Part shown: in pieces, positions 10,256-39,763 of the stretch
Layout of the letters: the number at the start of each line of letters is the position of its first letter
How positions within the stretch are numbered: position 1 is the stretch's first letter
DNA from: an uncultured Clostridium sp.
GTDB lineage: Bacteria; Bacillota; Clostridia; Lachnospirales; Lachnospiraceae
NCBI GenBank assembly: GCA_945915475.1
Contig: CAMEFI010000008.1
Span: 1-64,000 of the forward strand
DNA: 64,000 nt
Direction: 5' to 3'
The notes under the pieces: generated by a model
What the model was told of the DNA's origin: nothing
The model's input: the letters and a program-made list of their open reading frames with translations, nothing else
Database searches by the model: none
Translations under genes and position numbers: made by a program

Positions 10256-11914
10256 ATGATGCAGATTACAGTAGATGGGGTAAAACATACAGTAGAAGAG
10301 GGAACAACGTTAGAGGCAGTTGCCAGGGAATATGGGGTTTGTGAAAATGGCGAGATTGTACTGGCTTATCAGAACCGGCATCTTTGTGAATTATTTAAGC
10401 CGGTTATGGCAAATGCCAATATTACATTTGTGTCAACCGCAGATAAAATTGGAATTGAGACCTACAGACGAAGCATGATCCTCATGATGATGAAAGCATT
10501 TCGTGATGTGTTGAAACGGGATGGGGCAACGGGGAGAATTCGTGTGTTGTTTTCCCTGAGCAAAGGATTATACTGTGAGCTCGCGAGTCATCAGGTTACT
10601 TTGTCGCAGGAATTATTACAGAAAGTTTCTGACAGGATGCAGGAATTAGTGGACGCAGATGTTCCCATTGAAAAACATACATATAATGCCCATGATCTGG
10701 TAAAACGGTTTTCCAAGCAGGGACGTAAGGATAAAGTCCAGCTATTCCGTTATAGAAGAGCTTCGAATGCCAATGCCTATCTTTTAGAGGATTTTGAAGA
10801 TTATTATTATGGATTTATGGTGCCATCAACAGGCTATCTTAAATATTTTGCGCTTTATGCATATGAGGATGGATTTGTCCTGCAGATGCCGGCAAGAAAG
10901 AATCCGCTCGTAGTACCGGAATTCAAGCCGCAGAATAAATTGTTTCAGGTACTGAAGCAGTCAGACGACTGGGGAGTTATGTTGAATGTAGATACAGTGG
11001 GAGGATTAAATGATGTCATTGCGGCAGGAGAGATCGGAGATCTGATGCTTGTACAGGAGGCCTTGCAAGAGAAAAAAATTGCGGAGATTGCAGAAGCGAT
11101 CAAACAACAGGATAAGAAATTTGTGTTGATTGCGGGGCCGAGTTCTTCAGGAAAGACATCTTTTTCCCATCGGTTAAGTATTCAGTTGCGGGCACTTGGT
11201 ATGCATCCGCATCCGATTGCTCTGGATAATTATTTTGTGGATCGGAAATATACTCCGAAGGATGCAGAGGGAAATTTAGATTTTGAGTGTATTGAAGCGC
11301 TGGATGTGAAACAATTTAATGAAGATATGCTGCATTTGTTACAGGGAGAGGAAGTTCGGATGCCGACATTTAATTTTCTGATTGGAGAGCGGGAATACAG
11401 AGGTGACAGTTTGCAGCTCCATGAAAATGACGTATTGGTCATCGAAGGAATTCATGGTCTGAATCCCGAAGTATCCAAGCAGCTTCCGGATGAAAGTAAA
11501 TTCAAGATATACATTAGTGCACTGACCCAGTTAAATGTAGATGAACACAATCGGATTGCAACAACTGATGGACGCTTGATCCGGCGAATTGTCAGGGATG
11601 CCAGAACGAGAGGGCATAATGCACAAAAAACAATTGGTATGTGGGATTCGGTAAGAAGAGGAGAGGAGAAAAATATCTTCCCTTTCCAGGAGGAAGCGGA
11701 TGCAATGTTTAATTCAGCATTGATCTATGAGTTGAGTGTGATTAAACCATATGTTGAGCCGTTGTTGTTCGCGATTCCGAAAGATGCACCAGAATATCAG
11801 GAAGCAAAGAGATTATTAAAATTCTTAGATTATTTTCTTGCAGTCGGTTCCGAATCCATACCGAATAATAGTATTTTAAGAGAGTTTGTGGGTGGTAGCT
11901 GCTTCCCTGTATAA
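10256..11914 (+). CDS. TGS-domain nucleoside (uridine-type) kinase
   Basis: This multidomain protein has about 552 aa. An N-terminal TGS-like ubiquitin fold (MQITVDGVKHTVEEGTTLEAVA) is followed by a region with HTYNAHDLV resembling the second additional domain of threonyl-tRNA synthetase. The C-terminal half is a phosphoribulokinase/uridine-kinase fold with Walker A GPSSSGKTSF (about 294-303), ALDNYFVDRKYTP and a conserved VIEGIHGLNP block. This architecture is common in Clostridia and annotated as nucleoside kinase; the true substrate is uncertain. Four in-frame ATGs occur at 10238-10259; GGAGG at 10243-10247 favours 10256. It overlaps the Nif3 gene region and probably ends this operon. Confidence 0.88.
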   Translation: MMQITVDGVKHTVEEGTTLEAVAREYGVCENGEIVLAYQNRHLCELFKPVMANANITFVSTADKIGIETYRRSMILMMMKAFRDVLKRDGATGRIRVLFSLSKGLYCELASHQVTLSQELLQKVSDRMQELVDADVPIEKHTYNAHDLVKRFSKQGRKDKVQLFRYRRASNANAYLLEDFEDYYYGFMVPSTGYLKYFALYAYEDGFVLQMPARKNPLVVPEFKPQNKLFQVLKQSDDWGVMLNVDTVGGLNDVIAAGEIGDLMLVQEALQEKKIAEIAEAIKQQDKKFVLIAGPSSSGKTSFSHRLSIQLRALGMHPHPIALDNYFVDRKYTPKDAEGNLDFECIEALDVKQFNEDMLHLLQGEEVRMPTFNFLIGEREYRGDSLQLHENDVLVIEGIHGLNPEVSKQLPDESKFKIYISALTQLNVDEHNRIATTDGRLIRRIVRDARTRGHNAQKTIGMWDSVRRGEEKNIFPFQEEADAMFNSALIYELSVIKPYVEPLLFAIPKDAPEYQEAKRLLKFLDYFLAVGSESIPNNSILREFVGGSCFPV

Positions 11915-12060
11915 TACACGGTTTCCTATATTATTTGCGAACTCTTATGTACTAAAAGAACCAATTTATGGGAATATTTATCCTAAACTGTCGAGAACTG
12001 TACAAAAAGAGTATAATTGTGAAAAAATTATAAAAAAAAACGAAATAATTGTGCAATATA

Positions 12061-12089
12061 GTGACAAAATAAAATGGCTGTGTTATAAT
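12061..12089 (+). promoter_or_regulatory. Extended -10 promoter of the 239-aa hypothetical gene
   Basis: GTGACA (12061-12066), a 17-nt spacer and TATAAT (12084-12089) with an upstream TG (TGTTATAAT) form a convincing sigma-A promoter 36 bp before the start codon. The preceding gap (11915-12060) is AT-rich and shows nothing else. Confidence 0.7.
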
Positions 12090-12124
12090 ATGATTAGCTA
12101 AAAATATTAAAGGAGGGCTGTTTT

Positions 12125-12844
12125 ATGAGTGTATCAGGACAAAAGTTTGATCTACCCCAGATGAAGGCGTATTTTGAGACACAGATACCAAATGTCAGAT
12201 TACTAAGCGATATGACCCTTAGCGAAACAGACTTTAAAAGCTTAGGCGCTAAGCTCAAGTCAGCCTTCGCATTTACAGATTGTAAAGATGGTATTGATGA
12301 TATTATGATCTGTTACCTGGTGTATTGGGTGTACGCGCTAATCTACTGGAATGAGGATACAGGAATTCACGATGAACTGACAGATTTCTGTGCAAGCTTG
12401 CCACAGTATCAGATTCGACATCATTTAGAAATGCTGGTAGATACATTTGCAGACTACAATATTGATAAGTTTGGTTATCAGAATAAGAATGTAGAGGAGT
12501 TAGCGTCTGTTCTGATTGCCAGACACGCAGGAATACCGAATGATGAGAAGTATCAGGTGTTTGAATTGATTGATGATTATAGGAATCAGAATGTATCGGT
12601 AGACACGATGGTAGATGATATTTATGCGCACCTGCCATATAAGAGTCAGTACATATTCTCTCTACTGGATAAGAGTTCCAGACAGGAAATCATTTGGGAG
12701 ATTCGGACATTGATGGCAGAGATATGTTCGAAGTCGTATACAAGAGAGGAATTGTTACAACGCTATCCGCATACATCCATTAGTTTGATTGATTATTGTT
12801 TCTATTGGCAAGAGGGAAAAGCATTGCTTTCACAGGCAAAGTAG
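12125..12844 (+). CDS. Hypothetical protein, conserved-looking, unknown function
   Basis: This 239-aa soluble protein is rich in acidic and aromatic residues, with no signal peptide, no membrane span and no motif I recognise. It appears largely helical. A tyrosine/tryptophan-rich stretch (MICYLVYWVYALIYW) near residues 60-75 is the most distinctive part. An excellent ribosome site (AAAGGAGGGCTG), an extended -10 promoter and a strong terminator show that it is a real, independently transcribed gene. It lies between the kinase gene and rnpB. No function can be assigned. Confidence 0.75.
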   Translation: MSVSGQKFDLPQMKAYFETQIPNVRLLSDMTLSETDFKSLGAKLKSAFAFTDCKDGIDDIMICYLVYWVYALIYWNEDTGIHDELTDFCASLPQYQIRHHLEMLVDTFADYNIDKFGYQNKNVEELASVLIARHAGIPNDEKYQVFELIDDYRNQNVSVDTMVDDIYAHLPYKSQYIFSLLDKSSRQEIIWEIRTLMAEICSKSYTREELLQRYPHTSISLIDYCFYWQEGKALLSQAK

Positions 12845-19649: not shown

Positions 19650-19678
19650 TTGATTCCACAGGCATTTTATATTATAAT
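19650..19678 (+). promoter_or_regulatory. Promoter of the cysD operon
   Basis: TTGATT (19650-19655), a 17-nt spacer and TATAAT (19673-19678) stand 33 bp before cysD. This separates the sulfation operon from queC. Confidence 0.7.
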
Positions 19679-19710: not shown

Positions 19711-20604
19711 ATGGATCATTTGGAAGAATTAGAAGCAGAAGCAATGTACATCATGCGTGAAGTCGTTGCGGAATGTGAGAAACCAGTAATGTTATATTCG
19801 ATCGGAAAAGATTCTTCAGTTATGTTACATCTTGCACTGAAGGCGTTTTATCCGGAGAAACCGCCATTTCCATTCTTACACGTGAATACCACATGGAAAT
19901 TCAAAGAGATGATAGCCTTTCGTGACAAGACAGCGAAAGAACTTGGTATTGAGATGTTAGAATATATCAATGAAGAAGGTGTTCGGCAGGGCGTGAATCC
20001 TTTTGATTATGGTGCGGCTTATACGGATATTATGAAGACACAGGCATTAAAACAGGCACTTAACAAGTACGGATTTACAGCTGCGTTTGGTGGCGGACGC
20101 CGGGATGAAGAGAAATCGCGGGCGAAAGAACGTGTATTTTCTTTTCGCGATGTGAACCAGGCATGGGATCCGAAGAATCAGAGACCTGAGCTTTGGGATC
20201 TATACAATACACAGATTAATAAGGGAGAAAGTATCCGTGTATTCCCACTGTCAAACTGGACAGAGAAAGATATCTGGCAATATATTAAAAAGGAGAATAT
20301 TCCTATCGTATCTCTGTATTATGCTGCAGTTCGGCCGGTAGTAGAACGGGATGGTAATTTGATTATGGTAGATGACGACCGTATGAAGCTGCGACCGGGT
20401 GAGAAGGTTGAGAATAAGATGGTGCGGTTCCGCACCCTTGGATGTTATCCATTGTCAGGAGCTGTTGAGTCAAATGCAACGACTCTTGATGAGATTATTG
20501 ACGAGACATTAGCTTCCGTTGAATCGGAGCGGACAAGCCGTGTCATTGATTCGGATGGTGGTAGCGCAAGTATGGAGAGAAGAAAGAGAGAGGGATATTT
20601 TTAG
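19711..20604 (+). CDS. cysD: Sulfate adenylyltransferase small subunit
   Basis: With CysN this forms ATP sulfurylase, making adenosine 5'-phosphosulfate (APS) from sulfate and ATP. The 297-aa protein has the PP-loop-type [18 protein letters not shown] and the family blocks [37 protein letters not shown] and [26 protein letters not shown] precedes the ATG. cysN begins 2 bp after its stop. No cysH or sulfite reductase is present, so in this operon APS seems destined for PAPS rather than for assimilation. Confidence 0.96.
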
Positions 20605-20605
20605 T

Positions 20606-22435
20606 ATGAATGACAAACTCCTTAAATTCATTACCTGTGGTAGTGTAGATGATGGAAAGTCCACTTTGATTGGACATTTATTGTATGATGCAAAGTTAAT
20701 CTTTGCAGATCAGGAAAGAGCACTGGAATTAGATTCTAAAGTTGGTTCTAGAGATGGTAAGATTGATTACTCCCTTCTTCTTGATGGTCTGATGGCAGAG
20801 AGGGAACAGGGAATTACCATTGATGTGGCATATCGGTATTTTTCTACGGACAACCGAAGCTTTATTGTAGCGGATACTCCGGGACATGAGGAATATACAA
20901 GAAATATGGCGGTAGGAGCATCCTTTGCTTCATTGGCTGTCATATTAGTGGATGCAAGCCAGGGTGTGTTATTACAGACGAAACGGCACTCTCGGATCTG
21001 TGCATTGATGGGAATCAAGCATTTTGTATTTGCAGTGAATAAGATGGATTTGATTCATTATGACCAGCAGAAGTTTTTAAAGATTCAGAAGAATATTAAG
21101 ATGCTGATGGCTGAATTTGATTATGAGTCCCTTTGCATTATCCCTGTATCAGCAACAGAAGGTGACAATATTGTGAAGAAATCCGCCCATATGCATTGGT
21201 ACAATGGTACAACATTACTGTCGTATCTAGAGCAGATTGATGTATCTGAGAAAGATGAGAATATGCAGTTTACCATGCCGATCCAGAGAGTGTGTCGACC
21301 GGATCATACATTCCGGGGATTTCAGGGAACCATTGCATCCGGCAGTGTCAGTGTAGGCGATGAGATTATGGTTATGCCAAGTGGAGAGAAGGCTGTTGTC
21401 ACCGGCATTTTGCAGGGCGATAAGAAAGTAGATAAGAGCAGTAAAGGTTATGCAGTAACGGTACAGCTAGATACGGAGATTGATATATCAAGAGGATGCG
21501 TATTGCAGGAGCCGGATGCGCACTTAGAAGCGGGTACTTTATTTGTTGGATCATTGCTTTGGATGGATGAGAAGAGTCTGGCAGCAGGACGGAACTTCTG
21601 GTTGAAACTGGGCACACAGTTAGTACCGGCTACCGTTATGAAGATCAAATACAAAATTGACGTCAATACCGGTGCAGAGGTGAATGCAGATGAGATTTAT
21701 AAGAATGAAATTGCAGTCTGTGAGATATCTGCGGGTAGTAAGATTGTGTTTGACCGCTTCTCCAACAACCGTAAGATGGGTGCATTTATCTTAATTGATC
21801 GTGTAAGTCATGCAACGGCAGCAGGCGGTGTTGTTATGCATCCACTTTCCAGAGGGAATAACCTGAAATGGCAGGAGTTAGATATTACAAGAGAGATCCG
21901 TGAGAACCAGTTGCAACAGAAGGCTGCCACTATTTGGCTGACAGGACTATCCGGTGCCGGTAAGTCTACGATTGCCAATGAGTTAGAGAAGCGTCTGTGC
22001 TCCATGGGCAAGCATACGATGTTGTTGGATGGTGATAATGTTCGTATGGGTCTGAATAAGAATTTAGGGTTTAAGGAGACGGATCGTACAGAGAATATCC
22101 GAAGAGTTGCGGAAGTATCCAAATTGATGAATGATGCAGGCTTAATTGTGCTTACATCCTTTATTTCACCATATCAGATGGACCGGAGAATGGCCCGGGA
22201 AATCGTGGGCGACTGCTTCATTGAGATATATGTAAGTACTCCGTTAGAGGAGTGTGAACGCCGGGATGTGAAAGGTTTGTATAAGAAGGCAAAGGCAGGT
22301 CAGATTCCAAACTTTACCGGAATTTCCAGTCCGTATGAGGAACCGGAACATCCGGAGATCACAGTTGATACTACGAATCATAGTGTAAATGAATGCGTGG
22401 ACCTTATTATGAAACAGCTAGAAGAATATCTCTAA
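20606..22435 (+). CDS. cysN: Bifunctional sulfate adenylyltransferase GTPase subunit / APS kinase (CysN-CysC)
   Basis: This fusion of about 609 aa resembles NodQ. The N-terminal EF-Tu-like GTPase has G1 CGSVDDGKSTL (11-21), G3 DTPGHE (90-95) and G4 NKMD, and drives the CysD reaction. From about residue 430 the APS kinase domain begins with P-loop WLTGLSGAGKST and LDGDNVRMGLNKNLGF, phosphorylating APS to PAPS. The true start is ATG 20606; the frame opens earlier inside cysD, but GAGAGAGGG and homology favour the internal ATG. The CysD/CysNC pair therefore makes PAPS, the universal sulfate donor, directly ahead of a sulfotransferase gene. Confidence 0.96.
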   Translation: MNDKLLKFITCGSVDDGKSTLIGHLLYDAKLIFADQERALELDSKVGSRDGKIDYSLLLDGLMAEREQGITIDVAYRYFSTDNRSFIVADTPGHEEYTRNMAVGASFASLAVILVDASQGVLLQTKRHSRICALMGIKHFVFAVNKMDLIHYDQQKFLKIQKNIKMLMAEFDYESLCIIPVSATEGDNIVKKSAHMHWYNGTTLLSYLEQIDVSEKDENMQFTMPIQRVCRPDHTFRGFQGTIASGSVSVGDEIMVMPSGEKAVVTGILQGDKKVDKSSKGYAVTVQLDTEIDISRGCVLQEPDAHLEAGTLFVGSLLWMDEKSLAAGRNFWLKLGTQLVPATVMKIKYKIDVNTGAEVNADEIYKNEIAVCEISAGSKIVFDRFSNNRKMGAFILIDRVSHATAAGGVVMHPLSRGNNLKWQELDITREIRENQLQQKAATIWLTGLSGAGKSTIANELEKRLCSMGKHTMLLDGDNVRMGLNKNLGFKETDRTENIRRVAEVSKLMNDAGLIVLTSFISPYQMDRRMAREIVGDCFIEIYVSTPLEECERRDVKGLYKKAKAGQIPNFTGISSPYEEPEHPEITVDTTNHSVNECVDLIMKQLEEYL

Positions 22436-22480
22436 TAGACAATTACCGTAATACATCTATATATAAAGGAGAAAGACCAG

Positions 22481-23617
22481 ATGAAGACTTTGTATTTGCA
22501 TATAGGAACGCCTAAGACAGCAACGACAGCCATTCAATTATTTTGTTATGAGAATCGAGAAGTGTTAGAGCGTCATGGGTATTATTATCCTATGTTTGAA
22601 TATGAATTTCCCAATGTTCAGAAATACCGTAATGGTCATTTTCTGGTATGTCGTGTATTGGATGAAAATCGAAAACGAATTCCGGAGCAGCAGGAGGCTT
22701 TAACAAGAAAGGTAATTGGAGAACTGTTAGATGTTTTTGAGCAGCATGATACGGTGATTCTGTCAGATGAAGGTATTTGGAATCGGGGATTTTTTGAAGA
22801 TACGCATTGCTGGAGCAAAATAAAAGAAGAACTTGTGCAGCGGGATATTGTGGTAAAGGTAATCGTATATTTTCGCAGACAGGATGACTTTTTGTTCTCA
22901 TGGTGGAATCAGCAGGTAAAAGAAGGAATGCTGGGTTCTTCTGTTATGGACTGGGATGAAGTGACGGAAAAGCTGCCATATATTAAATTGGATTATTATG
23001 GGTATTTAGAGCAGATTGCAGAATATGTTGGTAAGGAGAATATTATCGTTCGAATATTTGATCGTCAGCAATTTGTCGGTGGAAGCATTCAAAGTGATTT
23101 TCTTCATGCAATTGGCCTTTCCATGACAGATGAGTATAATATGGCAGATGCAATTCAGAATCTTAGTCTCAACAAAAATGACATCGAAATCAAACGGGTG
23201 CTGAATACAATACCCGGCTTGGAGAAAAGCGACAACAATCTTTTTCGTAAGGTTGTCTCTGAGATGTCCGGCGAAACTACAGATGATAAGAACGTCAGTA
23301 TGTTTTCGAAAGAGGAAGACCAGATGTTTATGCAGCAATATGAAGAGGGGAATAACAGGATTGCAAAAGAGTATCTGCATGTGGATACCCCAATGTTCCC
23401 GCCGGTTGAAGGCTCTATAGAGAAGTGGAATGTGGACAATGAACAGATGATCCGTGATGTCATTCGTTTCTTTGGCACAACAACCATTCATTTAATGAGA
23501 AAGAACGAAGAACTGAACCGGGAATTGCAGGTACAGAAACAACATATTCATAATATCCGTTTCAAAATGCAGCATCCGGTGAAAGCAATGTTGAACAAAA
23601 TAAAGCGTAAGGAATAG
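22481..23617 (+). CDS. PAPS-dependent sulfotransferase family protein
   Basis: The 378-aa protein opens with LHIGTPKTATTAIQ (6-19), the 5'-phosphosulfate-binding loop of sulfotransferases, and carries VIVYFRRQDDFLFSWWNQ around residue 128, which fits the 3'-phosphate-binding region. The C-terminal helical tail is basic. No signal peptide is seen, so it should act in the cytoplasm on a sugar or lipid-linked glycan intermediate. Spacing of 45 bp after cysNC with AAAGGAGAAAG suggests one operon, closed by a terminator at 23624. The acceptor is unknown; the downstream surface-polymer locus is the natural candidate. Confidence 0.85.
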   Translation: MKTLYLHIGTPKTATTAIQLFCYENREVLERHGYYYPMFEYEFPNVQKYRNGHFLVCRVLDENRKRIPEQQEALTRKVIGELLDVFEQHDTVILSDEGIWNRGFFEDTHCWSKIKEELVQRDIVVKVIVYFRRQDDFLFSWWNQQVKEGMLGSSVMDWDEVTEKLPYIKLDYYGYLEQIAEYVGKENIIVRIFDRQQFVGGSIQSDFLHAIGLSMTDEYNMADAIQNLSLNKNDIEIKRVLNTIPGLEKSDNNLFRKVVSEMSGETTDDKNVSMFSKEEDQMFMQQYEEGNNRIAKEYLHVDTPMFPPVEGSIEKWNVDNEQMIRDVIRFFGTTTIHLMRKNEELNRELQVQKQHIHNIRFKMQHPVKAMLNKIKRKE

Positions 23618-23623
23618 GGAAGG

Positions 23624-23681
23624 GAGATTGTCATACCAGATTGAGGTTACAAATTTCAGATGGTAACGACAGTCTCTTTTT
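23624..23681 (+). terminator. Terminator of the cysD-cysNC-sulfotransferase operon
   Basis: GAGATTGTC pairs with GACAGTCTC, extended by TACCA/TGGTA, followed by TTTTT. Confidence 0.8.
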
Positions 23682-23690
23682 ACATTTCCC

Positions 23691-28683: not shown

Positions 28684-30051
28684 ATGAAGAAGAGAGAGAA
28701 ATTTAAGCGTTTAATCAATTTTTTAGAGGGCTTTGTAATCTTAGCGGCCCATACACTGGTCTTCGCTTTTGTGTGGTATGGCTCTTATGTAAAACAGTTA
28801 GAGATACCATTTTTCCGACGTGGTGACTGGGCAGTGATTGGTGTATATGCGTTGATTCTTTTCCTGCTGACACATCTGTATGGAGGATTTAAGATTGGTT
28901 ATTTGCGGTTAATGGATGTATTGTATTCGCAGATATTATCCTTGATATGTGCAAATGTTGTAGCATACGTACAGGTTGTACTGATCAGTAGGGAATATCT
29001 GAGTTCTGTTCCACTTCTCAAGATGACAGTTGTTCAGATTTGTATTATTTTGCTGTGGGTATTTATATGTAAATTGATCTATGCAGCTTTATATCCACCA
29101 AGACAGATGCTGCTTGTCTGTTATGACAGAGATCCGGATGATATGATCAATAAGATGAGCTCCCGTCAGGACAAATATGAGATTTGCGATATTGCAGATC
29201 TGAATCAGGAGACTTTAGATGGTGTCTGCGATATGGTGAATGAATATGAGGCAGTTCTGATCTACGATATTCCGGCATATGAGCGTAATATTATTTTGAA
29301 ACGATGCTTTACAGAAGGTGTCAGAACTTATGTTACACCGAAGATATCAGATATATTGCTAAGAGGTGCAGATAATATTCATCTGTTTGATACGCCGTTG
29401 TATCTGTCCAGAAACCAGGGACTGTCAGCTGACCAGCTAATGTTCAAGCGATTGTTGGACTTAGCTGTATGTCTGCCTGTATCTGTATTGTTGATGCCGC
29501 TTTTTCTGGTGATTGCATTTCTAATCAAGATATACGATGGAGGTCCTGTTTTATATAAGCAGCCAAGACTTACCGTGGATGGTAAGGTGTTTAACATATA
29601 TAAGTTCCGAAGTATGCGGATGGATTCTGAGAAGGAAGGAGCACAGCTTGCCAGGAAGAATGATGATCGTATTACACCGGTGGGACGTGTGCTTCGTGCA
29701 TTGCATTTTGATGAGTTTCCACAGCTTATTAATATTATCAAAGGAGATATGTCATTAGTTGGCCCGAGACCGGAACGGCCGGAGATTGCAGCACAATACA
29801 AAGAGATTATTCCGGAGTTTGATTTTCGCCTTAAGGTAAAGGCAGGACTTACCGGGTACGCGCAGGTATATGGCAAGTATAATACAACTCCGTATGATAA
29901 GTTGAAGTTAGACCTTACGTATATTGAGAATTATTCATTCTGGTTAGATATTAAGCTGATGTTCCTGACATTTAAGATTCTGTTTCAGAAGGAGAATACA
30001 GAGGGAATTGATGCAAACCAGGTGACAGCGGTGAAAGAAAAGAAGGAGTAG
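28684..30051 (+). CDS. Polyprenyl-phosphate sugar-1-phosphate transferase (WbaP/CpsE-like)
   Basis: The enzyme is predicted to start polymer synthesis by moving a hexose-1-phosphate onto undecaprenyl phosphate. The 455-aa protein has four N-terminal membrane spans, a degenerate nucleotide-binding-like middle, another span near 265 and the catalytic domain with KQPRLTVDGKVFNIYKFRSMR, LHFDEFPQLINIIKGDMSLVGPRPERPE and KAGLTGYAQVYGKYNT. These are the family signature motifs. It opens the main glycopolymer locus and is followed 5 bp later by a CDP-polyol phosphotransferase. Sugar specificity cannot be read. Confidence 0.93.
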   Translation: MKKREKFKRLINFLEGFVILAAHTLVFAFVWYGSYVKQLEIPFFRRGDWAVIGVYALILFLLTHLYGGFKIGYLRLMDVLYSQILSLICANVVAYVQVVLISREYLSSVPLLKMTVVQICIILLWVFICKLIYAALYPPRQMLLVCYDRDPDDMINKMSSRQDKYEICDIADLNQETLDGVCDMVNEYEAVLIYDIPAYERNIILKRCFTEGVRTYVTPKISDILLRGADNIHLFDTPLYLSRNQGLSADQLMFKRLLDLAVCLPVSVLLMPLFLVIAFLIKIYDGGPVLYKQPRLTVDGKVFNIYKFRSMRMDSEKEGAQLARKNDDRITPVGRVLRALHFDEFPQLINIIKGDMSLVGPRPERPEIAAQYKEIIPEFDFRLKVKAGLTGYAQVYGKYNTTPYDKLKLDLTYIENYSFWLDIKLMFLTFKILFQKENTEGIDANQVTAVKEKKE

Positions 30052-30056
30052 TGTAG

Positions 30057-31229
30057 ATGAACCGGACTGGGATAAAGGTGATATTTTCGGAATTGGTTCG
30101 TGTAGCTACGCTGCCGTTTCGATTGCTTCCGGTTAAGAAGAACCGGATTCTGTTTACAGGGCTTACGGGTGGTCATGTATATGATTATTCCTGTAATCCA
30201 AAGTATATATATGAATATTTACGGGATTACGCCAAAGGGCAATATGAATTTGTCTGGGCAGTGAGTGACAAAGAAAAATACCGTTTTTTGCAGGAAGAAG
30301 GTGTGAAATTAGTTCGACATTTTACACTTTCTTCTATTCCTATGTTATTGACTGCAAAGGTTATTGTTACCAATGGTTCCTATGTACCCTGGTTTCCATT
30401 TCGAAAGAAACAATGTGTGATCAACACATGGCATGGTGGTGGAGCATATAAAAAAGTGGAGATGGAGACGGATAAGACGGATTGGGCGGCAAAACGGATG
30501 ACATCCTTTTGTGCAAACAATATGGATCTGTTCGTTGCAAGCTGCAGGGTACAGGAGGAACAAATGATCCGGACAACCTATGGATATCAGGGGGAAGTGC
30601 TTCGTAAAGGAACTCCCCGTAATGACAGACTGGTGAATCACGACACAGAGCAGATGGCTCGAAAGGTGAGAGAGGTATGTCAGATTCCGGCAGATGCAAA
30701 GATACTGCTTTACGCGCCAACTTACAGGTATGGAACAGTACCGGCAATACTTGATTGCGATTCCCTGCTGGAACAGCTAGGAGGAAAGTGGGTATTTTTG
30801 AACCGCTATCACCGATATCAGACGGAGGATATGAATGTCCGGGTAGTGGGAACAAAGATGATAGATGTCATGGATTATCCGGATATGCAGGAATTGTTAG
30901 CGGCAGCTGATGTGTTAGTAACAGACTATTCATCATGTGTATGGGATTATTCTTTTCTGAAAAGACCATGTATTCTTTTTGTTCCGGATAAGGAAGAATA
31001 TATACGCAAGACGGGATTTTATGTGGAACCGGATCAATGGCCGTTTCCACAGGCAGCATCACAGCAGGAATTGTGTTCCTTGATTCAGGCATTAGAAGAG
31101 AATGCTGTCAGAAAAGAAGAATATATAAAGGATATAGAACGGCATTTGCAGGAACTTGGCAGCTATGAAAGCGGGCAGGCTACGGAAGCAATTGCAGTGT
31201 GGATAAAAAAGAGGATGGAAGAGTGTTAG
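30057..31229 (+). CDS. CDP-glycerol/CDP-ribitol phosphotransferase family protein (first copy)
   Basis: The 390-aa protein belongs to the TagB/TagF/TarF family (Glyphos_transf), which adds polyol-phosphate units from CDP-glycerol or CDP-ribitol to a lipid-linked acceptor on the cytoplasmic face. Key motifs are INTWHGGGAYKK, GTPRNDRLV, LLYAPTYRYG and LVTDYSSCVWDYSFL. An amphipathic N-terminus may dock the membrane. It follows the sugar transferase closely, so it may prime the first polyol unit. Donor identity is inferred to be CDP-ribitol because tarI/tarJ are present and tagD is not. Confidence 0.88.
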   Translation: MNRTGIKVIFSELVRVATLPFRLLPVKKNRILFTGLTGGHVYDYSCNPKYIYEYLRDYAKGQYEFVWAVSDKEKYRFLQEEGVKLVRHFTLSSIPMLLTAKVIVTNGSYVPWFPFRKKQCVINTWHGGGAYKKVEMETDKTDWAAKRMTSFCANNMDLFVASCRVQEEQMIRTTYGYQGEVLRKGTPRNDRLVNHDTEQMARKVREVCQIPADAKILLYAPTYRYGTVPAILDCDSLLEQLGGKWVFLNRYHRYQTEDMNVRVVGTKMIDVMDYPDMQELLAAADVLVTDYSSCVWDYSFLKRPCILFVPDKEEYIRKTGFYVEPDQWPFPQAASQQELCSLIQALEENAVRKEEYIKDIERHLQELGSYESGQATEAIAVWIKKRMEEC

Positions 31230-31252
31230 GTAATGAGTAGGGAGGCAGGGAT

Positions 31253-32434
31253 ATGCAGACAGCTGTTTCGGTGATTATACCGGTTCATAATGGTGCAGAT
31301 TATATTGAGGATACTGTGTCTTGTATTATGAAGCAGACATTTCAGGATATGGAAATTATTATCGTGGATGATGGTTCAACAGATGAGACTTCGCAGACCG
31401 TACACATGTTACAGGAGCAGGATTCCAGAATTTCTTATATCTATCAGGATAAGGCAAATGCGGGAGTTGCGAGAAACAAGGGAATGCAGGAGGCCAAGGG
31501 GGAGTATCTTCTTTTTTTAGATGGTGATGATCTGTTTGAACCTACATTAGTGGAAGTTATGTATAACCAGATTGTGAAAGATGAGGCAGACGTATGTGTT
31601 TGTGATGCTGACCAGTATGATACAGGAAGTGGACAATATTTGTCTAAACCGCAATATCTGCGTAAGAAATATCTGCCGGAGAAGATTCCGTTTTCCAGAA
31701 AAGAGATAGGAAATGCAATCTTATATTTTACAACGAGTGTTCCATGGAATAAGATGGTTCGTAAGACATTTATCGATGAACATCAGTTGTATTTTCAGGA
31801 TATTGAACGGGCGAATGATCAGTTTTTTTCTATTATGACATTAGTTTTAGCACAACGGATTACTATAGTGGATCGTGTGCTGGTACATTACCGGATTAAT
31901 CAGAAAGGCAATCTTACAACAGAGTTTTCTAAGACGCCTCTTTGCGCATTTGAGGCGATGCTGGCAACAAAAGAGGAATTAGAGCGAATGAGCTTGCTTC
32001 AGGATGAGAATGTGCGGTGTGCATTTGATAATAAGGTATTGAATTTAATGATATACAGTCTGAATATTCAGCGTTCCATAGATGCTTACAAAGAATTATA
32101 TGAAACATTAGTAAATGGGGGCTTTGAAAAGCTGGGGATGACAGTGAGAGAAGAGACATATTATTTTAACAAATTAGAGTATCAGAATCTGAAAAGCTTT
32201 CATGAACTTTCTTACGATCAGTTTCTCCTTATGAAGAATCGGGAATACCGGGATGCCATAGCAAGGAAAAATGCGGCATATAAGGATATGGTGGAGCAGA
32301 AGAATGCGGTGATTGAAGACTTGAAAGAAAAAGAAAAAGAATTAAAGGCAATCAAGAAAAAGAACTGGTATAAGAAGATAACAAAGTGGATTGCGAGATA
32401 TCACAAATTGATTGGCAAAGAAGATGAGTACTAA
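31253..32434 (+). CDS. Family 2 glycosyltransferase with C-terminal coiled coil
   Basis: The 393-aa protein has a GT-A fold domain: SVIIPVHNGADYIEDTV, IIVDDGSTDETSQT, ANAGVARNKGM and the metal-binding LFLDGDDLFEP (DxD). A middle helical region is followed by a highly charged coiled-coil tail (about 335-385, EDLKEKEKELKAIKKKNWYKKI) that may bind the membrane or a partner. It is encoded between two TagF-family genes with tight spacing, so it likely adds a sugar to the polymer backbone or linker. Confidence 0.9.
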   Translation: MQTAVSVIIPVHNGADYIEDTVSCIMKQTFQDMEIIIVDDGSTDETSQTVHMLQEQDSRISYIYQDKANAGVARNKGMQEAKGEYLLFLDGDDLFEPTLVEVMYNQIVKDEADVCVCDADQYDTGSGQYLSKPQYLRKKYLPEKIPFSRKEIGNAILYFTTSVPWNKMVRKTFIDEHQLYFQDIERANDQFFSIMTLVLAQRITIVDRVLVHYRINQKGNLTTEFSKTPLCAFEAMLATKEELERMSLLQDENVRCAFDNKVLNLMIYSLNIQRSIDAYKELYETLVNGGFEKLGMTVREETYYFNKLEYQNLKSFHELSYDQFLLMKNREYRDAIARKNAAYKDMVEQKNAVIEDLKEKEKELKAIKKKNWYKKITKWIARYHKLIGKEDEY

Positions 32435-32450
32435 GGGTTGAGGTGAAGAG

Positions 32451-34226
32451 ATGAAGTTAAATGCACAAACAGAAGTATTGGTTGACAAATTAGCCATTCG
32501 CCGGGATATTATGACAATTGGAGTATTGGTAAGGGATATGTCAGGCAATCCAGAATCCGTTGAGATTAAATTAGCGGTTAAGTTTGAAAACGAAAAAGAA
32601 ACCCGTATTCTTCCGCTTAGTGTGACGGATACAAGTTTTGATGAAAAAGGGAACTATATCGGATATGCCATTTTTGATTATGAGTTAGATGCCGTATTTT
32701 TCCGCAGTGATCTAAATAATTTTACCGTGACTGTACAGGCCTATGATGGAAACACATATCGGGATATTCTGGTGGAAGGGAATGATTTTAATCAGGTAAA
32801 AGATGAGAATGAATATGCCTGCAGCCTGAATCAGGGTGTGATCAACATAAAAAGGAAAAAGCCTGTGAAGATACCAAAGAACAATCCAATTCTGGCTGTT
32901 CTTATATTTTGTTACCGTGCGATGGAATTTATAATAGGAACTGCACTGATTCCACTTTTTCTGTTAGATGGTATTTATGTTCATTTTTTAGGGAAAAAAC
33001 GACGCTTTATGGAAAATACGTATGGCGGTGGACAATTAAAAAGGGCACTATTGTTTGCAAAATGGAGATATTCGTCTTTTTGCCGGCTTACTATGAATCG
33101 TGCTACGATTAAGAAGACTTTTTTGAACGTGGCAACTTCTGTGATGTCTGTATTTTTTAAGCAGGAATATATTTTGTTTGTTTCGTCAAGGAGAACGGAT
33201 CTTACAGGGAATATCGCTTATGTGAATGATGTTCTGCAGGAGAAAAATGCAAAGGTTTTGTTCTGGCTGGTACCGGGTAAGACAAAATATATGACATTTC
33301 GTAACTTCTGGCTGTTGGCGTATCGATTGGCACGAAGTAAAGTAGTAGTGGTTGATGATTTCACACCGGTATTAAATGAAGTCTGGGCCATGGAACATCG
33401 TATTTTAATTCAGCTATGGCATGCCTGTGGTGCCTTTAAGACATTTGGATTTACAAGGGTTGGGAAGGATGGTGGACCGAATCAGACAAGTACCAATCAC
33501 CGTTACTATAATTATGCCATTGTCAGCTCCTCAGAAATTCGACGCTTTTATGCAGAGGGGTTCGGTATTGATGTGAAGAATGTGAAGGCATTGGGAATTC
33601 CGAGAACGGATGATTTCTTTAAGGAATCTTATAAGACAGAGATCCGTGCCAGACTTTATAAAGATTATCCACAGCTTCAGAATAAGAAGGTGATATTGTT
33701 TGCACCAACTTTTCGAGGGAACGGAGCAGGAACGGCCCATTTTCCATTTGAGAAGTTCGATGTAAAGAAGATATTAGAAAAGCTTGGGGATGAGTATATG
33801 ATTATCATTAAGCATCATCCTTTTGTAGAGGCCAGACATCCTGTAGATTCTTCTGTAAAAGACAGAGTATTAGACTTGTCTTCGGAGTCTGAGATTAATG
33901 ATCTGCTCTTTATTACGGATCTTTTAATTACAGATTATTCTTCTGTTATTTTTGAGGCGTCCCTGTTGAATATTCCGATGTTGTTCTATGCATATGACCT
34001 GGAGGATTATGTTGTAAATAGAGATTTCTATTATCCATTTAAGAATTTTGTACCGGGTAAGATTGTGAGAAGTATGGATGATATTGTGGAAGCGATTGAA
34101 AAGGAAGATTATGAAGGTTGGAAAGTAGAGGCATTTAAGAATCGATTCTTTGACCAGCTTGATGGAAAATCTTCAGAACGTGTAGCTGATTTTATTATAA
34201 GCTTACTGGAGAAAGGAAAGAAATGA
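32451..34226 (+). CDS. CDP-polyol phosphotransferase (TagF/TarL-like, second copy)
   Basis: At 591 aa this is the longest of the three copies. An N-terminal beta-rich domain (about 1-130) resembles the accessory part of large Tar polymerases. It is followed by a hydrophobic segment (about 147-175) and the C-terminal transferase with IQLWHACGAFKTFGF, ALGIPRTDDFF, LFAPTFRGNG and LLITDYSSVIFEASLL. Catalytic histidines lie in WHACGAF and KHHPF. Length and layout suggest a chain-extending polymerase. Its stop overlaps the next ATG by 4 bp. Confidence 0.88.
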   Translation: MKLNAQTEVLVDKLAIRRDIMTIGVLVRDMSGNPESVEIKLAVKFENEKETRILPLSVTDTSFDEKGNYIGYAIFDYELDAVFFRSDLNNFTVTVQAYDGNTYRDILVEGNDFNQVKDENEYACSLNQGVINIKRKKPVKIPKNNPILAVLIFCYRAMEFIIGTALIPLFLLDGIYVHFLGKKRRFMENTYGGGQLKRALLFAKWRYSSFCRLTMNRATIKKTFLNVATSVMSVFFKQEYILFVSSRRTDLTGNIAYVNDVLQEKNAKVLFWLVPGKTKYMTFRNFWLLAYRLARSKVVVVDDFTPVLNEVWAMEHRILIQLWHACGAFKTFGFTRVGKDGGPNQTSTNHRYYNYAIVSSSEIRRFYAEGFGIDVKNVKALGIPRTDDFFKESYKTEIRARLYKDYPQLQNKKVILFAPTFRGNGAGTAHFPFEKFDVKKILEKLGDEYMIIIKHHPFVEARHPVDSSVKDRVLDLSSESEINDLLFITDLLITDYSSVIFEASLLNIPMLFYAYDLEDYVVNRDFYYPFKNFVPGKIVRSMDDIVEAIEKEDYEGWKVEAFKNRFFDQLDGKSSERVADFIISLLEKGKK

Positions 34227-36214
34227 AAACATCAGTACAAGAAAAGAAAAGAAGTATAACAGACCGGATTAGTGACCGGCAAATCTGTATTTTGCTATAT
34301 ATGATCTCTTTTTTAATGATGACGGCGCTGGGGAGTGTTTTAAGTGTTTCTTATATATTAGACGAGACAGGAACCGTGGCAAATGCTGCATATCTTGCCG
34401 GATATAACTGGCATAACTGGGTAACAAACACCGGCGGTTACTTCTATAAATATGGACAGGCACCGTTTTATGCATGGATATTCAAGTGTGTGAATAATCC
34501 ATATCTTATTTATAAGTTAATGATGATTGTAAATGGTGCATTTGTTGCGTTTGTTCCGGTGATGGCATACCGGATCTGTCGTCATCATTTACAACAGGAT
34601 AATAAGATGAAGTGTGCCATGCTTTCCTTTGTACTTATTTTTGTTCCGGCTACCGTGCTGTATTCTTTGTTTGCAAGAGCAGATGTGATGTTGATTGCTT
34701 TTGCGTGGATCACTCTTTATGTGTTGCTGCAGGCAGGAGATCAGACAAAGAAGAACCGGCAGATTTTGTATTCTGCTCTGGTTGCGTTTGTAAGTGTATA
34801 TATGTATATGTGTCATTCCCGGGGAATTGTCTTTGTCATTGCTGTGTTTATGGTGGTAGTGGCATGGCGTTTTTTTGCAAAAGAAAAAAATATCTGTTTT
34901 CCTTCTTATCTTGTAAGTTTGGTTGTCTGGCTGATGGTGGATAAGAAACTTACCCGTTTCTTCAAATCGAATATCTGGGGGACCGGGGCAAAGAAGAATA
35001 CTCTGGAGAACATGAATTATGACAAATACCGGAATCTGCTTACGTTAGATGGAATAAAAACGGTTTTGAATAATGTGACAGGCTGGATGTTCAGTACCTT
35101 TCTTGGTACATTTGGACTGGCAATTCTAGGATTGCTGTTTTCTATGGTGGTTATCGTGTTCTTTGTTGCAAAGAAGAAGAATATGACACCGAAAGAAGCG
35201 GTAATCAGTATGTATGCCGCTCTTTGCTATGGGGGAACCGTAGCACTTGGAGTGCTGTTTTCTTTTGGTTCTAATTATCGTTTTGTAACGGGACAGGAGA
35301 TTACAAGAGCAGACCGGTTTCTGTATAGCCGTTATATTGCGCCAACCTATGGGATTCTCATTTTTATAGCACTTTATTATCTGTTCTTCCGGACAGATTG
35401 TTTCCGATGGAAGACGAAAATGTTTACGTTACTTTTAGGAGGCGGGTTGATTGTATATTGCAGGACCTGGCTTGCCGGTTATGTGAATAAAGTAGAGTAT
35501 TCATGGAGAAATACCATTGATGCAGCTCTTTTTTTTGATACGGTACGATATGGCAACGATGCCAACGTATATAGCGGTGTCTCCCGGGCACTGCTGAAAG
35601 CCGCAGTACTTGCTTTCTTTATCCTGTTTGTATGTATTGTGATCAATCTGTGCAAAATAAAATATACCAAAACCATTCTTTTTGTGATTGCATGCTGTTT
35701 TGTTGTCAGCTTAAGGGTCAATTACAATAAGCTGCGTTTTTCCACGGATATAAGACCTATGGTTACAATTGGACCGGTCATCACATCCATGTATCAGTTA
35801 GAGACGGATACGGACATATCAGAAGAATATCGGGATGTGTATGTGGATAGTTCCATCACAAGAAAAAGAATGTTACAGATTGGTATGCCGCACTTTGATC
35901 TGCGGGTTAATCAGAGTGTGCAACCGGAAGATGTTGACAATATGTTTATTGTATCTAAGAGATATTCTGCCGGCAATGGCTGGATGGATGAGGATTGTTA
36001 CCGGCTTCCTGATTATGATATGGAAGACGGGGCGACCATTGTCCTGGTGAAGGGAGAAGAACTGAAGTCTGCTTTGGAGCAAAAAGGAATCAAAGTGGAA
36101 GCTCTTCCTGTAGATTATACGAATCGGACATTACCCGAAAGACCACTGGATTTGGAAAAAGATACGGAGCTGGTATTTGGTTACCAGAAAGCGGCCTTTT
36201 TCTATGGCAGATAA
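34223..36214 (+). CDS. Multi-pass membrane protein, possible GT-C-type transferase
   Basis: The 663-aa protein has about ten hydrophobic spans up to residue 500 and an extracellular-looking C-terminal part of about 150 aa. An acidic pair follows the first span (SYILDETGTVANAAYLAGYNW), as in GT-C enzymes where an Asp/Glu outside the first helix is catalytic. No firm family match is recognised. It is coupled to the TagF-like gene by an ATGA overlap and precedes the ABC exporter. It could add a lipid-phosphate-linked sugar to the polymer outside the membrane, or be a polymerase; both are inference. Confidence 0.65.
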   Translation: MKTSVQEKKRSITDRISDRQICILLYMISFLMMTALGSVLSVSYILDETGTVANAAYLAGYNWHNWVTNTGGYFYKYGQAPFYAWIFKCVNNPYLIYKLMMIVNGAFVAFVPVMAYRICRHHLQQDNKMKCAMLSFVLIFVPATVLYSLFARADVMLIAFAWITLYVLLQAGDQTKKNRQILYSALVAFVSVYMYMCHSRGIVFVIAVFMVVVAWRFFAKEKNICFPSYLVSLVVWLMVDKKLTRFFKSNIWGTGAKKNTLENMNYDKYRNLLTLDGIKTVLNNVTGWMFSTFLGTFGLAILGLLFSMVVIVFFVAKKKNMTPKEAVISMYAALCYGGTVALGVLFSFGSNYRFVTGQEITRADRFLYSRYIAPTYGILIFIALYYLFFRTDCFRWKTKMFTLLLGGGLIVYCRTWLAGYVNKVEYSWRNTIDAALFFDTVRYGNDANVYSGVSRALLKAAVLAFFILFVCIVINLCKIKYTKTILFVIACCFVVSLRVNYNKLRFSTDIRPMVTIGPVITSMYQLETDTDISEEYRDVYVDSSITRKRMLQIGMPHFDLRVNQSVQPEDVDNMFIVSKRYSAGNGWMDEDCYRLPDYDMEDGATIVLVKGEELKSALEQKGIKVEALPVDYTNRTLPERPLDLEKDTELVFGYQKAAFFYGR

Positions 36215-36221
36215 ACATAAC

Positions 36222-36250
36222 TTGTGAAGATGAATATTCTGTGATAGAAT
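36222..36250 (+). promoter_or_regulatory. Candidate internal promoter before the ABC exporter genes
   Basis: TTGTGA (36222-36227), a 17-nt spacer and TAGAAT (36245-36250), 25-28 bp before the start. It is weaker than consensus. Confidence 0.4.
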
Positions 36251-36277
36251 AAGGCGAATACATCGGGAGGCAATATG

Positions 36278-37063
36278 ATGAAGCGATTTATAAATGATGT
36301 TGTGAAGTATTACAACTATATGGTAAGAGCAGCGAAGTCTGCATTGAAGACGGAGGTAGCCAATTCCTATCTGAACTGGATCTGGTGGATTCTGGATCCG
36401 TTATTCTCTATGTTAACCTATTATTTGATCTTTGGCGTTATTTTTGATGGAAAAGAACAATACTTTGTAATATTTCTGTTTATTGGATTGACGATATGGA
36501 ATTTCTTTAATAAGAATGTTGTACAGAGTGTCAATATGATCAAGAGAAACAAGTCTATTGTTGCAAAGGTATATATTCCCAAATACATATTGCTAATCTC
36601 TAACATGATGATCAATGGGTTCAAGATGATGATTTCCTGGTTCATTGTTGTGCTGATGATGGTATGCTATCGGGTAGAGATATCATGGTATGTGCTTGCC
36701 TTTGTCCCAATCATGATCGTGCTTATCATTTTTACATTTGGATTCAGTGTACATTTGCTTCATTTTGGTGTATTTATCGAGGACCTTAACAATGTGATCA
36801 ATATTGCATTCAAGTTGTTATTTTACATGACGGGTATTATGTATAATATTGAGAAGAGAATTCATGTTCCGTGGGTTCGGGATGTGATGATATATGGCAA
36901 CCCCATTGCATTGCTCATTCATGATATGCGAAATGTATTGTTATATCAGACGGCACCATGTTGGGAAGGGATGGCTATATGGGCAGCAATTGGAATACTG
37001 TTAAGTGCAATAGGTATCAGACAGATCTACAAGAATGAGAATACTTATGTAAAGGTGATATAA
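36278..37063 (+). CDS. Polysaccharide/teichoic acid ABC exporter, permease (TagG-like)
   Basis: This ABC-2 membrane component of about 261 aa has six hydrophobic spans and the typical N-terminal YLNWIWWILDPLFSMLTYYLIFGVIF. With the ATPase that follows it would flip the finished lipid-linked polymer. Two ATGs (36275, 36278) follow GGGAGG; the second has better spacing. Its TAA overlaps the ATG of the ATPase gene. This type exports wall teichoic acids or O-antigen-like polymers. Confidence 0.92.
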   Translation: MKRFINDVVKYYNYMVRAAKSALKTEVANSYLNWIWWILDPLFSMLTYYLIFGVIFDGKEQYFVIFLFIGLTIWNFFNKNVVQSVNMIKRNKSIVAKVYIPKYILLISNMMINGFKMMISWFIVVLMMVCYRVEISWYVLAFVPIMIVLIIFTFGFSVHLLHFGVFIEDLNNVINIAFKLLFYMTGIMYNIEKRIHVPWVRDVMIYGNPIALLIHDMRNVLLYQTAPCWEGMAIWAAIGILLSAIGIRQIYKNENTYVKVI

Positions 37064-37863
37064 TGAAGAATAACGAATGGAATGAAGAATTGAATGATGA
37101 GATAGATGGAGAGAAGATTAGCAAGGAGATTGATGACCGGGATATTGCTATTGAAGTGAAGAATCTTTGTATTGGCTATAAGAATATCAAGGCATATTCT
37201 ATTAAGAAGAGTCTTCTTCGCCTGAAAAAGGTACAGGTGGAAGAATTTCAGGCTGTTAAGAATGTATCCTTTACGGTTCCCAAGGGCCAGATTATGGGGA
37301 TCATTGGTAAGAATGGTAGTGGTAAATCTACTATGTTGCGTGCAATTGCCGGAATCTTCAGTCCGGACAGTGGAACCATCGACCTGAAAGGGCATACGGT
37401 ATCCCTGCTATCCATTGGTGTCGGTTTTCAAAAAGAAGTAACAGGAAGAGAGAATATATTATTATCCGGAATGTTGTTAGGATTTTCAGAAGAAGAGATT
37501 CGTTCCAAGATGGATGAGATTATTGAATTTGCAGATTTGGGCAGATTTATTGATATGCCGGTTAAGACATATTCCAGTGGTATGTATTCTAAGTTGGCAT
37601 TTTCCATTACTGCCATTTTAGAGACCGAAATTATGCTCATCGATGAGGTGCTTAGTGTAGGAGATCAGAGATTTAAGAAGAAAAGTTTTCGAAAGATGAA
37701 GGAATTGATCTCCAATAAGGATCGTACTGTTGTGATTGTATCGCATAATATATCGACGCTGAGTTCGTTGTGTGACCGGGTTATGTGGATGCATGATGGA
37801 GAAATCATGAAAATTGGTCCAACGGATGAAGTATTAGAAGAATATCAGGAGTTTATGAAATAG
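37063..37863 (+). CDS. Polysaccharide/teichoic acid ABC exporter, ATPase (TagH-like)
   Basis: The 266-aa ATPase has Walker A GIIGKNGSGKSTMLR, signature motif TYSSGMYSKLAFS (degenerate LSGGQ as in this exporter class), Walker B IMLIDEVLSVGD and switch HNISTLSSLCD. An acidic N-terminal extension precedes IEVKNLCIGYKN. It lacks the long C-terminal carbohydrate-binding domain of some homologues, so export probably does not depend on a non-reducing-end cap. It is coupled on both sides, and the next gene starts at GTG overlapping its stop. Confidence 0.94.
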   Translation: MKNNEWNEELNDEIDGEKISKEIDDRDIAIEVKNLCIGYKNIKAYSIKKSLLRLKKVQVEEFQAVKNVSFTVPKGQIMGIIGKNGSGKSTMLRAIAGIFSPDSGTIDLKGHTVSLLSIGVGFQKEVTGRENILLSGMLLGFSEEEIRSKMDEIIEFADLGRFIDMPVKTYSSGMYSKLAFSITAILETEIMLIDEVLSVGDQRFKKKSFRKMKELISNKDRTVVIVSHNISTLSSLCDRVMWMHDGEIMKIGPTDEVLEEYQEFMK

Positions 37864-39023
37864 TGGTACGTAAGATTGTCAAATGGTTCGTATTTAAATG
37901 CATATATCCCTTTTGGTACTGGCTGACATCGAGAAGAGCCATTCGACGGAATAAAGTGATTTTTGTTGAGAACCATCAGGGGGCATTGACGGATAATTTC
38001 CGATTATTATATCAGGAGTTCCGGCAGAGAGGATATGATATACATGTGCATTATCTTAGGGTGGCACATTCCGGTTGGGGAACTATCATTCGGCGGTCTA
38101 TGCGCTTAATTGGAGATATGGCAACAGCGTCTGTTGTGTTTCTCAATGAGTCGAACAGTCTTTTTGGTGCCTTTACCCTTCGGAAAGGTACGCAGCTCAT
38201 TCAGGTATGGCATGCATGTGGAGCCTTTAAAAAATGGGGTTATAGTGTTGCAGACAAGGAATTTGGAGAGGATGCGAAGGAATTATCGAGATATTCCGGT
38301 CATCGTAACTATACATTAGTGCCGGTAAGTGGAAGGGATGTGTGTTTTGCGTATGAAGAGGCATTTGGGCTTCAGGGCAGGCATGTTGTAAAGCCACTTG
38401 GAGTCAGCAGGACAGATGTGTTCTTTGATGATGCATATAAACAAAAGGCATTTGAACATTTATATCAGTGGAGACCGGAGTGGAAGGGGAAGACAATTCT
38501 GTTATATCTCCCCACGTTTCGTGGTTCCATTAAGGAGGCAAAGGCCCCGGATGCTCTGGATTGGGAGATACTTGCCGGTCTGGATGAATCTTATGTGATG
38601 GTGATTCAGAATCATCCTTTTGTGACCTCCAAAATGGAGATACCAGCGGATTTGTCACACCGGGTTCTGGATATAACAGGAATGAGTGAACATGGGATGA
38701 CAACAGATGAATGGATGATCGTATCGGATATCTGTATTACGGATTATTCTTCTGTTGTATTTGACTATTCATTGCTGGAGAAACCGATTCTCTTTTTTGC
38801 CTATGACTTAGCGTCCTATTATGATGAGAGAGGTTTCTATTTTCCCTATGAGGATTTCGTTCCGGGACCGATTGTGTACAATACAGAAGAACTGGTGGAA
38901 CAGATTACCGGTATCACCGGATTTGATTATCATAAGCTGAATGCTTTTAAAGACAGATATATGAATGGGTGTGATGGAGCATCTACAAAACGAATCGTGA
39001 ATCGCATTTTAGAAACTGCATAG
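37863..39023 (+). CDS. CDP-polyol phosphotransferase (third copy)
   Basis: The 386-aa TagF/TarB-family protein starts at GTG 37863, overlapping the TAG of the ATPase gene. Motifs: IQVWHACGAFKKWGY, PLGVSRTDVFF, LYLPTFRGS, IQNHPFV and ICITDYSSVVFDYSLL. A basic, aromatic N-terminus (KWFVFKCIYPFWYWLTSRRAIRR) should bind the membrane. Position between the exporter and tarIJ ties it to polyol-phosphate transfer. The three copies probably differ in priming versus elongation. Confidence 0.88.
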   Translation: MVRKIVKWFVFKCIYPFWYWLTSRRAIRRNKVIFVENHQGALTDNFRLLYQEFRQRGYDIHVHYLRVAHSGWGTIIRRSMRLIGDMATASVVFLNESNSLFGAFTLRKGTQLIQVWHACGAFKKWGYSVADKEFGEDAKELSRYSGHRNYTLVPVSGRDVCFAYEEAFGLQGRHVVKPLGVSRTDVFFDDAYKQKAFEHLYQWRPEWKGKTILLYLPTFRGSIKEAKAPDALDWEILAGLDESYVMVIQNHPFVTSKMEIPADLSHRVLDITGMSEHGMTTDEWMIVSDICITDYSSVVFDYSLLEKPILFFAYDLASYYDERGFYFPYEDFVPGPIVYNTEELVEQITGITGFDYHKLNAFKDRYMNGCDGASTKRIVNRILETA

Positions 39024-39045
39024 ATGAAAACAGGAGGTAGCAGTG

Positions 39046-39762: not shown

Positions 39763-39763
39763 A

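Follow-up and report, generated by a model that had tools for sequence, protein, structure and literature searches.

Sulfation of Nod factors in rhizobia involves nodP-nodQ-nodH, a set of genes encoding CysD, a CysN-CysC fusion and a sulfotransferase, and serving a secreted glycan, the Nod factor. The operon described here lies in a 64,000-nt stretch of DNA from a member of the Lachnospiraceae (the whole stretch is called the window) and has the same three-gene architecture. The comparison with nodP-nodQ-nodH made in a first-pass annotation of this DNA is apt for architecture; the hosts differ, and no nodulation genes are present among the window proteins scanned.

Closer in habitat is Bacteroides thetaiotaomicron, in which BT_0416 sulfates cholesterol and lies adjacent to a cluster for 3'-phosphoadenosine 5'-phosphosulfate (PAPS), with BT_0412 as proposed sulfate importer and BT_0413-0415 completing PAPS, according to the available part of the source (PMC9417993). 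Both are systems of gut anaerobes with sulfate activation genes beside a sulfotransferase, and a proposed importer. BT_0411-BT_0416, however, belongs to another phylum, spreads the PAPS steps over BT_0413-0415 and has cholesterol as acceptor. Sulfated polysaccharides have been described as uncommon in bacteria besides cyanobacteria in the accessible text of PMC13390465, which infers one for the wps-1 cluster of Actinoplanes missouriensis, the product awaiting verification. That organism is also Gram-positive and has predicted polysaccharide sulfotransferases, but it is an actinomycete and its sulfotransferases are of other families and stand inside a Wzx/Wzy cluster. In Pontiella sulfatireligans, a fermentative anaerobe with putative glycosaminoglycan sulfotransferases, a sulfated exopolymer has been detected (PMC7356697, from the section available); this is a marine member of the Verrucomicrobiota and its enzymes belong to PF13469. 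No Lachnospiraceae cassette of this kind is described in the titles and abstract beginnings of the open-access matches listed.

The operon is a real, recurring sulfation cassette, since sulfotransferase and fused CysNC co-occur in related genomes and other CysNC loci hold unrelated sulfotransferases. It comprises three co-directional genes on the + strand, separated by gaps of 1 and 45 bases. The first is cysD (19711-20604), encoding the small subunit of sulfate adenylyltransferase (TIGR02039, 482 bits with a cut-off of 396.6; NF009214, 502.8 bits with a cut-off of 413). It is followed by cysNC (20606-22435), in which the GTPase subunit of ATP sulfurylase is fused to a kinase for adenosine 5'-phosphosulfate (APS) (NF004035, 851.5 bits, cut-off 715). 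The kinase domain is complete by Pfam (PF01583, 4e-68). We have corrected the CysNC start to the ATG at 20606, one base past the cysD stop, giving a product of 609 amino acids; this is likelier than the TTG at 20519 obtained from the mechanical listing of open reading frames. With both proteins above curated cut-offs, the pair qualifies as a NodPQ/CysDNC sulfate-activation complex. The third gene (22481-23617) encodes a predicted PAPS-dependent sulfotransferase of 378 codons with a basic C-terminal tail. The gene content given by the first-pass annotation (cysD, a cysN-cysC fusion and a sulfotransferase-like gene) thus stands, through the curated cut-offs for the first two genes and a predicted fold for the third. 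That the operon carries out PAPS-dependent sulfation is very probable.

The third protein is matched by neither Pfam nor NCBIfam at 1e-3, reaches no Pfam sulfotransferase model over its cut-off and matches no family even at 0.1; among 72 sequences of its family, 17 reach PF00685 with E values of 0.1 or lower, the lowest being 7.7e-5. Structure prediction gives it a sulfotransferase fold. The 5'-phosphosulfate loop K-T-x-T and the 3'-phosphate site (R and S, eight residues apart) show no variation among 25 aligned sequences, nor among 72 sequences partly selected by motif. The motif and its spacing are those of the PAPS site of SULT1E1. Residue E97 of the window protein, which corresponds in position to His107 of SULT1E1, is a candidate for the catalytic base. 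In the comparison of predicted structures the nearest folds with known function are polysaccharide-acting enzymes. Heparan-sulfate N-deacetylase/N-sulfotransferase and the 3-O-sulfotransferases are 8-14% identical to the window enzyme and are animal proteins. Two sequence searches against solved structures gave, respectively, no match and a best E of 0.28, to a sulfotransferase. A tblastn search of plasmids gave 29 records, and the 20 matches listed (21.5-30.5% identity) come from alphaproteobacteria and two Gloeothece, most of them unnamed and some annotated as glycosyltransferase. Across 348 genomes of the phylum, the family profile matches four, including the window's own; the other three belong to one genus and are distant matches. 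The window's genome encodes a second member, 45% identical (contig C3, 84401-85549), directly behind a long ChrA-type transporter gene. This sulfotransferase family, for which Pfam and NCBIfam have no model, was previously unnamed. Two deer-derived Lachnospiraceae metagenome-assembled genomes (loci L145 and L149) carry tandem arrays of five diverged sulfotransferases each, after which come genes resembling those for polysaccharide pyruvyltransferase, glycerophosphotransferase and TarI.

Recurrence was assessed in 250 genomes of the same family (Lachnospiraceae), with the sulfotransferase called at E 1e-10 and fused CysNC over its cut-off. The sulfotransferase is found in 14 genomes and fused CysNC in 26, 13 having both (p=8e-14). 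The remaining sulfotransferase genome (G171; G numbers denote sampled genomes, G000 being the window's own, and L numbers denote fetched loci) has a lone APS kinase near its sulfotransferase (PF01583, 220 bits). The 79 named loci are the best of a longer match list. A CysNC-type gene is present in the fetched stretch at 41 of them (34 full length, that is, 590 amino acids or more), and at 39 the sulfotransferase has CysD or CysNC as its immediate neighbour on the same strand. Without six overlapping loci, the counts are 37 and 35 of 73, respectively. In Roseburia faecis M72 (L134) the sulfotransferase gene is followed by a CysNC-type open reading frame of 212 amino acids, roughly the length of an APS kinase, and the long ChrA gene is present too. 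Seen from the CysNC side, a family sulfotransferase lies near the fused gene at 9 of 26 loci (the window and 8 of 25 scanned neighbourhoods). Five CysNC loci have other Pfam sulfotransferases: PF00685 (G198, G028, G060), PF13469 (G106) and PF03567 (G184). In addition, a distant member of the sulfotransferase family lies 1.3 kb from CysNC on the opposite strand in G109, a putative capsule-synthesis protein (PF10364) is encoded in G111 and G022, and an arylsulfate sulfotransferase (PF05935) in G248. Within a few genes of CysNC, a sulfotransferase is present in at least 15 of the 26 genomes. CysQ-like genes occur beside or near CysNC in G192, G111, G060, G184, G022 and G135, the G192 copy being over the CysQ cut-off. 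The 41 control stretches, which were hand-chosen and not random (20 are on contigs carrying CysNC or sulfotransferase), contain no CysD, CysQ-like, long ChrA-type, family sulfotransferase or other sought sulfotransferase gene (PF05935 was not sought).

Two of the fetched loci are of separate interest. L080 includes an arylsulfate sulfotransferase (PF05935, 5616-7709) adjoining glycerophosphotransferase-like and TagD-like genes and CysD-CysNC. In L075 a phosphoenolpyruvate phosphomutase with nucleotidyltransferase domains (10713-12722) directly follows CysNC; this may be a locus for a phosphonate-modified polymer that has a PAPS supply of its own.

The first-pass annotation regarded PAPS synthesis as dedicated to the sulfotransferase. 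This is well supported: no sulfite reductase was found, the third protein has a sulfotransferase fold, CysQ is encoded over its cut-off (contig C30, 30909-31640; 2 of 14 control genomes reach this cut-off), and the co-occurrence and adjacency recur in relatives, as do other sulfotransferases near CysNC. The competing possibility is assimilatory sulfate reduction, in which APS or PAPS would be converted to sulfite and then to sulfide for cysteine. CysD and CysN are common to assimilation too, the genome holds a second PF01507 protein besides CysD, and 9 of the 14 sulfotransferase genomes and 15 of the 26 fused-CysNC genomes have a NIR_SIR gene somewhere. However, NIR_SIR shows no association with fused CysNC (p=0.21; 121 of 250 genomes overall) and instead tracks those genomes in which CysN is matched but no fused CysNC exceeds the cut-off (20 of 23, one-sided p=7e-5). 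PF01077 (NIR_SIR), which covers sulfite reductases, has no match at E 0.001 in the window's genome, which is 97.87% complete; 11 of 14 control genomes match. The first-pass observation that sulfate-reducing genes are missing nearby is therefore true genome-wide for sulfite reductase, and the search for cysH elsewhere in the genome that it proposed found no CysH over cut-off. The only PF01507 protein besides CysD scores 53.0 bits with TIGR00434, far under the cut-off of 165.1. This gene, on contig C12, was considered as a CysH and rejected, being PRK13795-like and under every NCBIfam cut-off listed. The locus (L002; G000:C12:15850-16389) encodes a protein of 587 amino acids that resembles PAPS reductases, has a ferredoxin-like C-terminus and is related to the PRK13795 models. 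With neither NIR_SIR nor CysH, assimilation is rejected for this genome, and we consider it highly improbable as the role of the operon.

A separate matter is the acceptor. Our best guess, and a reasonably probable one, is an envelope carbohydrate; it is favoured as the best inference by the fold, by the other loci and by the fast divergence of the sulfotransferase together with polymer enzymes. The cassette has capsule-type neighbours in two genomes: Wzx in G184, and UDP-galactopyranose mutase and GT2 in G111. The five-gene sulfotransferase arrays of L145 and L149, with the polymer-type genes beside them, also speak for a surface glycan. Divergence was compared in one genome pair. In the syntenic locus L116, from rabbit gut, identity to the window is 69-92% for ThrC, the que products, CysD (92%), CysNC (85%), the kinase and GlmM, but only 43% for the sulfotransferase (L116:9911-11401). 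Values for genes of the polymer locus are 42% (GT2_a), 60% (GlyphosTr_a), 69% (GlyphosTr_b) and 83% (Bac_transf), which suggests that the sulfotransferase diverges fast, within the range of these genes. The basic C-terminal tail (a charge of +4 or more over the last 30 residues in 55 of 72 relatives) is a weak hint in the same direction: such tails are found in some window polymer enzymes (GT2_a, +7; Wzx, +8) and not others (PS_pyruv, -6), and in secreted proteins too.

The first-pass annotation argued for a sulfated envelope glycan from location. The large surface-polymer locus that it placed beside the operon is real (Pfam matches). Upstream of the operon are queD-queE-folE-queC; downstream are an epimerase gene (read here as galE), a diacylglycerol-kinase-type gene and a phosphoglucomutase-type gene (read as glmM), then the polymer locus and another locus of polysaccharide genes. 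The polymer locus (28684-40789, + strand) is of polyol-phosphate (teichoic) type and is a putative acceptor pathway. It includes genes for a sugar-phosphate transferase, three CDP-glycerol-type glycerophosphotransferases, an ATP-binding cassette (ABC) exporter, an IspD-like protein and a zinc dehydrogenase; the names TagG/TagH, TarI and TarJ for some of these are our interpretation. The locus also encodes a 663-amino-acid protein (34223-36214) with no Pfam match and a score of 20.5 bits, below cut-off, with TIGR03663 (Agl23).

A sulfated envelope glycan is plausible, but the location argument is weak, because polymer genes are no denser near sulfotransferases of this family than in the control stretches. 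This and several of the following observations weigh against the proposed explanation. Polymer genes are present at 20 of the 79 named loci and 8 of the 25 CysNC loci of the Lachnospiraceae sample, compared with 8 of the 41 controls. Eight further sulfotransferase loci, two of them overlapping named ones, are richer (4 of 8; 1.0 polymer gene per 10 kb against 0.32). CDP-glycerol glycerophosphotransferase alone is over-represented (15 of 102 loci, overlaps removed, against 1 of 41 controls), with a p value of 0.026 that is uncorrected for the nine families tested; the sole control locus with this gene (L205) is on the same contig as the G171 sulfotransferase. In L116 the genes between thrC and the polymer locus follow the same order as in the window (except for galE, which is not labelled there), so the proximity of operon and polymer locus may be mere inheritance. 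The second sulfotransferase of the window's genome adjoins the ChrA-type gene and is not in a polymer locus. In G188, of the same genus, the fetched stretch has no scanned polymer gene, although the contig ends shortly after the sulfotransferases and the downstream side is unseen. The substrate is not fixed by the fold: heparan 2-O-sulfotransferase scores 8.9, similar to steroid SULTs, and polysaccharide sulfotransferases are not uniformly near. Finally, 13 of the 26 fused-CysNC genomes have no family sulfotransferase and seven of the 25 CysNC loci (G159, G230, G103, G225, G248, G168 and G109) have none of the partners sought, PF05935 not being among these (G248 has it, and G109 has the distant sulfotransferase).

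The main rival is sulfation of a small molecule (sterols, bile acids, phenols or a secreted metabolite), as by BT_0416 with cholesterol. The genes BT_0411-0415, read as PAPS genes in the part of PMC9417993 available, provide a comparable cassette in a gut bacterium, and the sulfotransferase family as a whole shows no polymer-gene enrichment nearby; we nevertheless consider this rival unlikely. Sulfation of a lipid, a glycolipid or a protein (for example, on tyrosine) in place of a wall polymer or capsule is less probable still. The basic tail would also fit a membrane lipid or glycolipid, and no conserved acceptor gene was found beside the sulfotransferase family, but the polysaccharide-acting nearest folds and the capsule-type neighbours at some other CysNC loci speak against it. 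Taken as a whole, a sulfation cassette with an envelope carbohydrate as acceptor is the explanation that we hold to be fairly probable.

Sulfate supply introduces a further candidate. A long single-chain ChrA-type transporter is encoded at G000:C3:82841-84301 (L005:12842-14305), directly before the second sulfotransferase. This long form (E 1e-25) is present in 18 of the 250 genomes. All 18 belong to the 49 genomes in which CysN is matched (p=1e-14); the other 31 of these are among the 232 genomes without the long form. It occurs at 11 of the 79 named loci, always directly beside sulfotransferase or cys genes. Chromate transporters in general are not a useful marker (PF02417 matches 168 of 250 genomes); only the long form tracks CysN. 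Its occurrence with both fused and non-fused CysN suggests that it may import sulfate rather than export chromate. No report of chrA as a sulfate transporter was found in the open-access literature. It is not the sole candidate importer of this genome, which also encodes a SulP protein (G000:C3:16128-17225); a sulfate ABC permease is found there only far below cut-off. Among the 26 fused-CysNC genomes, SulP is present in 8 and the ABC permease over cut-off in 11, and in G060, G111 and G135 the sulfate ABC genes are no more than about 5 kb from CysNC. Both the long ChrA form and SulP are absent from G188. Close to the transporter gene, L005:11408-12700 encodes a 430-amino-acid reverse transcriptase, group-II-like and below cut-off in NCBIfam, with weak Drt and retron matches too.

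In the proposed mechanism, sulfate would enter through the long ChrA-type transporter or SulP. CysD and the CysN part would convert sulfate and ATP to APS, which the CysC part would phosphorylate to PAPS. The third gene product would then move the sulfuryl group to the acceptor, taken to be a cell-envelope carbohydrate (either a polymer precursor bound to the membrane or a polymer of teichoic or capsular type), and the resulting 3'-phosphoadenosine 5'-phosphate would be cleared by CysQ, encoded elsewhere in the genome.

More generally, and tentatively, gut Lachnospiraceae might sulfate their own envelope polymers through this modelless family, with PAPS supplied by CysDNC and, in some species, sulfate imported by a ChrA-type protein; we place this somewhat below an even chance. 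If so, PAPS synthesis of the fused kind is encoded in about a tenth of the Lachnospiraceae genomes sampled (26 of 250). Such cells would be coated with sulfated material resembling heparan or mucin, with possible effects on sulfate cycling in the gut and on the binding of phages, lectins and host. A testable enzyme family without a model is named, sulfate import is predicted for a long ChrA subfamily now named after chromate, and there is a route to asking whether commensal Lachnospiraceae copy host sulfated glycans.

As to the limits of the operon, the first-pass annotation gave the three genes a shared promoter and terminator. The terminator is borne out by a probable intrinsic-terminator hairpin with a U-tract at 23619-23681 (+ strand, -32.2 kcal/mol), for which the folded stretch 23610-23690 gives z = -5.9, with none of 200 shuffles as good; a simple terminator scan (5 sites found, 5.0 expected) does not include it. 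The common promoter fared less well: a possible sigma-70-type site, TTGATT-17-TATAAT (19650-19678, + strand), matches the hexamers at 10 of 12 positions and is unproven, and the scan is uninformative, the number of promoter-like sites (23) not exceeding that in shuffles (25.9, sd 5.6). The GC content of the operon (0.39-0.43) is similar to that of its surroundings (0.41 for the window).

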